Of a stretch of DNA of 40,246 nt, positions 4,318 through 11,260 are shown piece by piece. Below the pieces are notes generated by a model. The model worked only from the letters and a program-made list of their open reading frames with translations, was not told the origin of the DNA and ran no database searches. The position numbers and the translations under genes were made by a program. Each line of letters starts with the position of its first letter. Position 1 is the first letter of the stretch. The DNA comes from Acidimicrobiia bacterium (GTDB taxonomy: Bacteria; Actinomycetota; Acidimicrobiia; Acidimicrobiales; JANYDT01): positions 1-40,246 of the forward strand of contig JANYDT010000065.1 of NCBI GenBank assembly GCA_025359845.1, read 5' to 3'.

Positions 4318-5241
4318 GTGCGTTTCGGAATCCAACATGCCATGGGCGATCCCAACTGGGTGCCCGCCATCCTCGCCCCCGAGGCGTTGCGCCGCTTCGC
4401 CCGTTGCGCGGAGGACGGTGGGTGGGATGCGCTCGCGTTCACCGATCACCCTGCCCCGTCGATGCGGTGGGTCGCCTCGGGAGGCGAGGGCGTGGCCGAT
4501 CCGTTCAGCTCGCTCGGCTTCTGCGCGGCCTTGACCGACCGCATTCGGCTGCTGACGTGGGTGCTCGTGGCGTCGTATCGCAATCCTCTGCTGGCCGCGC
4601 ATCAAATCGCGACGCTTGATGCAATTAGTGGAGGTCGCGTCACCCTCGGTCTTGGCACGGGATACCTCAAGTCGGAGTTTCATGCCGTCGGTGCCGATCC
4701 GAATGTCAGGCGAGAGCAATTCGACGAGGCCGTGGCCGTCATGAAGATGGCGTGGACCGGAGAGGACGTGACCGTCGACGGCAAAGGATTCTCGGCGCGG
4801 GGCGTCACTGTTCAGCCGCTGGTCGTGCAGCAGCCCCATCCGCCGTTGTGGATTCACGGCAACGGTCCGTGGGGCATCGAGCGGGCCGCCCGGATGGGTC
4901 AGGGGTGGGTCGCGATGATGACCAACGAAGTGCGGGAGAGTACGATCCGAACGTTGCCGATTCGCGACCTCGACACGTTGGCCCGGCGCGTCGGCGAGTT
5001 GCGGACCGCGATGCTGCGCTTCGATCGTGATCCCGACGATATCGAAGTGATCCTGTCGGGCCACTGGCCCATCCTCGACGTGCGTGTGGGCTGGGACACC
5101 GCCGCTCGGCTCGAAAAGGTGGCCCGACTCGAGGCGCTCGGCGTCGACTGGTTGGTCATGACCGTCTGCGGCGACGACCCCGGCGCGGCCGAAGAAACCG
5201 TGAGCGCGTTCGCTGAACAAGTCGTTCGTCCGGCGCAGTAA
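4318..5241 (+). CDS. LLM-class (F420-type) oxidoreductase
   Basis: Luciferase-like TIM-barrel oxidoreductase of 307 residues, using F420 or FMN. Family features are the start VRFGIQH, the FTDHPAP stretch, a GRVTLGLGTGYL segment and the PPLWIHGNGP strand. The frame is open from 4258, but family proteins begin at the first beta strand, so GTG 4318 is chosen; no Shine-Dalgarno sequence is visible and the palindrome at 4299-4312 occupies that place. Divergent from the acyl dehydratase and followed 58 bases later by an SMP-30 lactonase, it probably belongs to the same catabolic set. Substrate unknown. Confidence 0.85.
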   Translation: MRFGIQHAMGDPNWVPAILAPEALRRFARCAEDGGWDALAFTDHPAPSMRWVASGGEGVADPFSSLGFCAALTDRIRLLTWVLVASYRNPLLAAHQIATLDAISGGRVTLGLGTGYLKSEFHAVGADPNVRREQFDEAVAVMKMAWTGEDVTVDGKGFSARGVTVQPLVVQQPHPPLWIHGNGPWGIERAARMGQGWVAMMTNEVRESTIRTLPIRDLDTLARRVGELRTAMLRFDRDPDDIEVILSGHWPILDVRVGWDTAARLEKVARLEALGVDWLVMTVCGDDPGAAEETVSAFAEQVVRPAQ

Positions 5242-10161: not shown

Positions 10162-10191
10162 CCGACGTGTTCTTACCTCGAGGAGTAATTC

Positions 10192-11260
10192 GTGATTCTT
10201 GACTCTCTGACCATTGATCCCGAAGCGTTTGCAGCACGGACCGGATGGGCGATCAAACCCGAAGGCGCCTGTAAGGGTGAGGTATGCGTTGCGCTGCCGG
10301 GTGCTCGTCAGGCCGACGGGCTGCTCGACGCTCGTGTCGTCGCGCAACGATTGGGCATGCCGCTCCTGAGCGACGCGGCGCACGGCCTGTATGCGCTGGG
10401 CCCCGAATCGGCAATCAGCGGCCGAGCGTTGACCACCGCCGAGGCGCCCGATATTTCACTGCCCGACCTGACCGGCACGATCGTTCGCCTCGCTGATCTT
10501 CGTCCGATGAAGGTGGTGTTGGTCGCTTGGGCCTCGTGGTGAGGGTGTCGCATGGATCTGCCCGTGTGGCAGGCACTGCGAACCCAACTCCATTCCAAGG
10601 GTGTCGAGATCGTGACGGTTGCGCTTGACACGGCCGGGGCCGAAGCGGCCGCCCGTGGATCGAGGCGGCCGCTCCTGAGCACCCATCATTGATCGACGCC
10701 GGCCATATTCTCGACGAGCGTTTCGGTGTGATCAATGTGCCTAACGGTGTCTGGATCGACGAGCGCGGCATAATCGTGCGTCCGGCCGAGCCGGCGTGGC
10801 CGGGTAGCACGCCGGTGCTCGACATGTTGAAGGAGCCCGGCCGCGCTGATCTCCCTCCGGCGAGCGTGGAAGTACGCGACCAGATCGCCAAGATGCACAT
10901 CGACCCGCAGCGATATCTCGACATGCTGCTCGATTGGGCTGAGAAGGGCTCGTCGAGTCAGTACGTGTTGACGCCTGAGCAGGTGATCGCCCGCTCCGAG
11001 CCGCGGTCGGCCGATGCGGCTCGGGCGGCGGCGCATTTCGAGTTGGGCCAGCATCTTCACCTCGCCGGTGATCACCTCGCGGCGGTGCCTCATTTTCGTG
11101 AGTCCCATCGGCTCCAGCCCAGCAATTGGACGTACAAGCGCCAAGCGTGGAACCTCGAATCGGTCGACACCGTCACCGGCGTCAGTGCCTACGAAGGGAG
11201 TTGGTTGGCCATGTGCTGGTTATCGGTGCTGACAATTACTACCCGGCGATTGAGGCATAG
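10192..11260 (+). pseudogene. Redoxin with in-frame TGA at the catalytic Cys (probable Sec); two later frameshifts
   Basis: Thioredoxin-fold redoxin of an actinobacterial group with a long N-terminal region and a C-terminal helical tail. GTG 10192 follows GAGGAG at 10180-10185. The frame runs to ...VLVAWASW, then TGA at 10540-10542, then GCRMDLPVWQ in the same frame. From memory of the family the site normally reads WASWCGCR, so the TGA sits on the first Cys (position 117). Later, one base is missing near 10645-10655 (family text EAARPWIEAA needs it) and another near 11209-11213, before VIGADNYYP and the TAG at 11258-11260. Restoring both bases gives 357 codons. Either the gene is decaying or the sequence holds two indel errors; the TGA itself looks like selenocysteine. 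Confidence 0.72.
10548..10581 (+). promoter_or_regulatory. Candidate bacterial SECIS hairpin
   Basis: Directly after the TGA at 10540-10542 the RNA can fold as an outer 5-bp stem (TCGCA 10548-10552 with TGCGA 10577-10581), a small internal loop, and an inner stem (CTGCC 10558-10562 with GGCAG 10568-10572, extendable by a U-G pair). The apical loop is CGUGU. The apical loop begins 20 bases after the UGA and has a G among its first two bases, both within the bacterial SECIS pattern. Hand-folded only. Confidence 0.55.

Follow-up and report, generated by a model that had tools for sequence, protein, structure and literature searches.

An in-frame UGA and two frameshifts in an Acidimicrobiia member of the WAxxUGC family of ResA/TlpA-like redoxins

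Positions 10192 to 11260 of the window (the whole 40,246-nucleotide stretch of DNA that was analyzed) almost certainly encode a WAxxUGC-type, ResA/TlpA-like oxidoreductase, whose UGA codon at 10540 through 10542 would be read as selenocysteine (Sec) by way of SelB, tRNA-Sec, and the adjacent hairpin. The UGA, its position, the SECIS element, the Sec machinery of the genome, and the family assignment were all identified by sequence analysis, and on this footing Sec recoding at the codon is as good as established computationally. The original prediction of a probable selenocysteine redoxin is supported, every computational check that it named having turned out favorable. The gene is a further member of a selenoprotein family recognized since 2008 and not a new one; it adds a well-supported member, with its genome context, to the little-studied Sec-x-Cys redoxins and opens no new mechanism.

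Gene boundaries and family assignment

Translation from the GTG at 10192 reaches the TGA and continues beyond it as GCRMDLPVWQ (same-frame sequence past the TGA, GCRMDLPVWQALRTQ...), which confirms that the codon lies in one frame within WASW-TGA-GCR; the WAxxUGC motif, with UGA at the U position, occupies 10528 through 10548 (WASW-TGA-GC). The gene had been expected to run from 10192 to about 10600 in a single frame. Its start and the frame of the TGA are borne out, but the end was misplaced: homology extends as far as a TAG stop at 11258 through 11260, giving the whole gene the span stated above, and the single frame gave way to two shifts of the −1 type, at about 10651 and 11207 through 11212 (Table 1). 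Standard gene callers would split such a gene at 10542 and again at both frameshifts.

In hmmscan searches, the NCBIfam family NF041054 (WAxxUGC_long; ResA-like WAxxUGC motif-containing protein) is matched by both pieces at E ∼1e-67: 10192 through 10695, with TGA read as Cys, covers profile positions 2 through 153 (227 bits), and 10689 through 11300 covers positions 166 through 338 of 354 (228 bits). The curated cut-off of 300 bits is reached by neither piece alone, only by counting both together. All ten sequences of our alignment A2 also match this family. At the level of Pfam, the first half matches AhpC-TSA (39.9 bits) and the second half gives weak TPR matches. The window copy shares with NF041054 the N-terminal GW-x-x-KPEG-x-C-K-x3-C motif, the WASWUGCR active site, the thioredoxin domain, and the TPR-like C-terminal part, spanning nearly all of the profile; it differs in being split by the two frameshifts and is otherwise an ordinary member, at most 63% identical to the family members found.

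A “Prx-like (UGC-containing)” selenoprotein family of 46 sequences was listed in 2008 from Global Ocean Sampling data (PMC2398784); a UGC-containing family was again in print in 2022 (PMC9312934), and a “UGC-containing TlpA disulfide reductase family protein” followed in 2026 (PMC13188914). The pfam00578/cd02966 domain and the UGC motif are shared with the first and last of these (PMC2398784 and PMC13188914), and no difference was found. We equate the published UGC families with NF041054 on the basis of domain and motif.

Table 1. Features of the selenoprotein gene (window coordinates)
Feature	Position	Strand	Remarks
Probable ribosome binding site, GAGGAG	10180..10185	+	6 nt upstream of GTG; read from the sequence
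Selenoprotein gene, piece 1	10192..10650	+	N-terminal domain (contains conserved Cys pair) followed by start of ResA/TlpA-like thioredoxin domain
UGA, predicted Sec codon (WASW-U-GCR)	10540..10542	+	Alignment with relatives: TGA 93, TGC/TGT 12
Bacterial SECIS region	10543..10587	+	Hairpin including variable lower stem, from fold of 10540–10587; lower stem unconserved in family
Conserved apical hairpin	10558..10572	+	Stem CUGCC (10558–10562)/GGCAG (10568–10572), loop CGUGU (10563–10567)
Frameshift 1, −1 type	10651..10652	+	Frame 1 to frame 3; profile match changes frame
Gene, piece 2	10653..11207	+	Remaining thioredoxin domain and helical, TPR-like C-terminal part
Frameshift 2, −1 type	11207..11212	+	C-terminal motif IGADNYYP in frame 2, preceding part in frame 3
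Gene, piece 3	11210..11260	+	C terminus HVLVIGADNYYPAIEA; natural stop TAG 11258–11260; matches family C terminus (IGAENYYP)

The UGA codon, its hairpin, and the Sec machinery

The active-site codon was compared across 105 relatives, these being family members from elsewhere with the window copy left out of the count; it is TGA in 93 and TGC or TGT in 12. The Cys of the Cys-containing homologs falls at the TGA position when they are aligned around 10540, as had been anticipated, and with so many relatives sharing the TGA the concern that it might be limited to one strain is set aside. A quick family tree requires at least six changes between Sec and Cys.

The hairpin that had been described at 10548 through 10581, with a CGUGU apical loop, exists. 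The segment 10540 through 10587 folds at −23.1 kcal/mol (z = −3.2; 1 of 200 shuffles equally good), 10549 through 10582 at −14.4 kcal/mol, and the apical part alone (10557 through 10573, a 17-nt tip) at −7.5 kcal/mol (z = −2.4). A longer fold (10530 through 10600) favors a different, competing pairing, so the fold of a single sequence is not decisive and comparison across the family is needed. Because no Rfam model reached its gathering threshold anywhere in the window, the element was assessed against the published limits of the bSECIS model, namely a loop of 3 to 9 nt on an upper stem of 4 to 16 bp, a G at loop position 1 or 2 that is mostly followed by G or U, a UGA-to-loop distance of 16 to 37 nt, and a minimum free energy of −7.5 kcal/mol or lower (PMC13188914). 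The hairpin behind the TGA lies within all four: it has a 5-nt loop on a stem of 5 to 6 bp; the loop reads C-G-U-G-U, with G at position 2 and then U; 20 nt separate the UGA from the loop (10543 through 10562, counted on the sequence); and the energies run from that of the 17-nt tip down to that of 10540 through 10587.

Across the family, the apical stem is complete, with all five of its pairs, in 92 of 93 distinct Sec sequences vs. 7 of 12 Cys sequences, and every Sec form has G at the second loop position. Stem and loop together (G[G/U/A] at loop positions 2 and 3) are found in 92/93 Sec vs. 3/12 Cys forms (Fisher 7e-10, uncorrected for relatedness); under a looser loop rule, which accepts a G at loop position 1 or 2 provided that G or U follows it, 92/93 Sec vs. 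6/12 Cys forms pass. Judged from these alignments, most Cys forms show decay of the apical stem or of the loop. Once the Sec sequences are thinned to 39, pairing in a six-pair apical stem extends to 98.3% of the cells, and two of the six pairs show compensatory changes on both sides; the observed pairing and covariation scores were reached by no shuffle, and slid versions were much worse on pairing. The outer apical pair is C-G in 33 of these sequences, U-A in 4, and U-G in 2, and is never unpaired. The hairpin is therefore not only stable on folding, as originally expected, but also covarying in the family. The apical stem is partly encoded by the codons of a conserved Leu-Pro-x-Trp-Gln (LPxWQ) stretch, so its conservation is only partly evidence for RNA structure; given this coding constraint, the strongest argument comes from the outer pair, where the choice of bases is coupled, together with the decay in Cys forms. 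A conserved lower stem (columns 9 through 13 with 38 through 42) was also considered and was rejected, being unpaired in most relatives.

The genome (4.69 Mb, 93% complete) carries all four of the Sec genes whose presence had been proposed as a check, and hence the bacterial Sec-decoding trait. selA (382.5 bits) and selB (259.5 bits) are adjacent and intact on contig C4, selD (362.8 bits) is on contig C50 (L024, G000:C50:4617-5555), and tRNA-Sec (selC; 68.3 bits) is on contig C97, with an anticodon that reads TCA in the sequence (a UCA tRNA). Among the genomes of 25 relatives, selA was found in 13/13 with the Sec form vs. 1/12 with the Cys form, and a tRNA-Sec scoring above 60 bits in 12/13 vs. 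0/12. The selD gene of the window's genome has an in-frame TGA of its own at the active site (HGAG-U-ACK), the known selenoprotein form of SelD. In one relative (L107, genome G163), selA scores 603 bits despite a Cys family member, and a strong tRNA-Sec was not found.

The alternative that the TGA simply terminates translation, or arose from TGC or TGT by point mutation, and that the hairpin is there by chance was weighed against these data. TGA is a single base away from the Cys codons and is thus reachable by mutation, and the fold of the one sequence is only moderately significant; the recurrence of TGA at this very codon in 93/105 relatives, accompanied by a covarying SECIS element and Sec machinery, refutes the ordinary-stop reading, and we consider this whole alternative exceedingly improbable. 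Under the Sec reading, SelB with tRNA-Sec would decode the UGA, with the hairpin directly 3′ of it directing Sec insertion. We infer that the resulting protein would use its Sec-Gly-Cys pair as a selenylsulfide/selenol redox center, probably in the cytoplasm, as no signal peptide was seen by eye.

In the genus g123, two genomes (G085 and G171) combine the Sec form with selA, and two (G112 and G204) have Cys and a changed SECIS loop (GCUCU). selA was undetected in the latter pair, an absence that is uncertain because these genomes are 88% and 74% complete. The pattern (L061 and L063 vs. L062 and L064) is a recent Sec-to-Cys switch. Such natural switching among relatives, with SECIS decay and absence of selA, helps to calibrate selenoprotein annotation.

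Origin of the two frameshifts

Family profile positions 4 through 156 follow frame 1 to about 10653 and positions 155 through 326 follow frame 3 from about 10647; with the second shift further downstream, the window copy has no single uninterrupted reading frame. What the frameshifts affect is the question of function, the ancestry of the copy being untouched by them. In the assembled sequence, a ribosome reading through the UGA would stop at a second in-frame TGA (10690 through 10692) after about 166 residues, and the predicted product is a truncated selenoprotein in which the remainder of the thioredoxin domain is missing.

Conservation of the protein is high on either side of each shift, so the lesion is either recent or an assembly error. 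The decay of an old pseudogene was rejected: 66 of 69 highly conserved family columns are kept, and the end branch of the window copy is of ordinary length (0.36; median 0.2), two intact paralogs having longer ones (0.46 and 0.62). We give an even chance to both frameshifts being real and recent, which would make the window copy a young pseudogene in a genome with four paralogs that are uninterrupted except for the TGA; the UGA and SECIS element would then persist because too little time has elapsed. Two −1-type shifts fall within one 1.07-kb gene and nothing comparable interrupts 20 further ORFs of the window, each of which is matched by its Pfam family in a single open frame; random errors both striking the same gene would be unlikely. 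Against a young pseudogene, the conserved columns and the branch lengths just given reveal no sign of decay besides the two indels.

Evidence for an intact gene comes from the protein conservation flanking both shifts, from the presence of the natural stop, and from the draft state of the assembly (254 contigs). That assembly or sequencing errors produced the shifts, the gene being whole in the organism, falls by a hair short of an even chance in our estimate; the lack of comparable frame breaks in the 20 other ORFs weighs against it. The locus could represent a selenoprotein gene early in loss, one of five Sec-encoding paralogs just broken by two indels with UGA and SECIS intact, a proposal that we advance tentatively and hold to be somewhat less than evenly likely.

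Structural relatives, distribution, and neighborhood

In the AlphaFold2 model built for one relative (L041, with Sec replaced by Cys; pLDDT 82.6), a thioredoxin domain is accompanied by a helical C-terminal region. The best matches to this model among solved structures are Bacillus ResA entries (2f9s and 1st9), with TlpA and StoA lower down; the thioredoxin-like fold is shared with ResA at a TM score of 0.75 to 0.78 over ResA. ResA is anchored in the membrane, and two residues separate the redox residues of its CxxC active site. In the present family a single residue separates them, as Sec-x-Cys (UGC), and there are additional N-terminal and TPR-like C-terminal parts. Near the N terminus lie two further Cys residues (C27 and C32 in the numbering of P0001) that never vary in alignment A2; they might participate in electron transfer.

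Sampling 395 genomes of the class to which the window belongs turned up the family in 117, most copies having one in-frame TGA. Close relatives come mainly from metagenome-assembled genomes (MAGs) labeled Ilumatobacteraceae, Acidimicrobiaceae, and Actinomycetes, and further ones carry the labels Chloroflexia, Proteobacteria, Pseudomonadales, or Gammaproteobacteria. The genome of the window itself holds four more TGA-bearing members (L018 through L021, on contigs C164, C156, C140, and C193), which are 44 to 59% identical to the window copy over the first part and are scattered across the tree on different branches; the family has thus expanded to five Sec-encoding paralogs in one genome. On a single 8.8-kb contig of an Ilumatobacteraceae MAG (L041), three TGA-bearing members occur, at 4337 (+), 5427 (+), and 4395 (−). 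Similar members in MAGs labeled Pseudomonadales and Gammaproteobacteria (L047 and L048) are nested in a mostly actinobacterial branch, a placement that may reflect horizontal transfer or mis-binning.

A conserved neighborhood was sought around 21 loci; once overlapping shadow frames and members of the family are set aside, no neighbor recurs in more than 6 of them, and none therefore points to a function or substrate. Elsewhere in the window, one ORF (23990 through 25024) combines a GNAT acetyltransferase domain with an NADPH-dependent FMN reductase domain.
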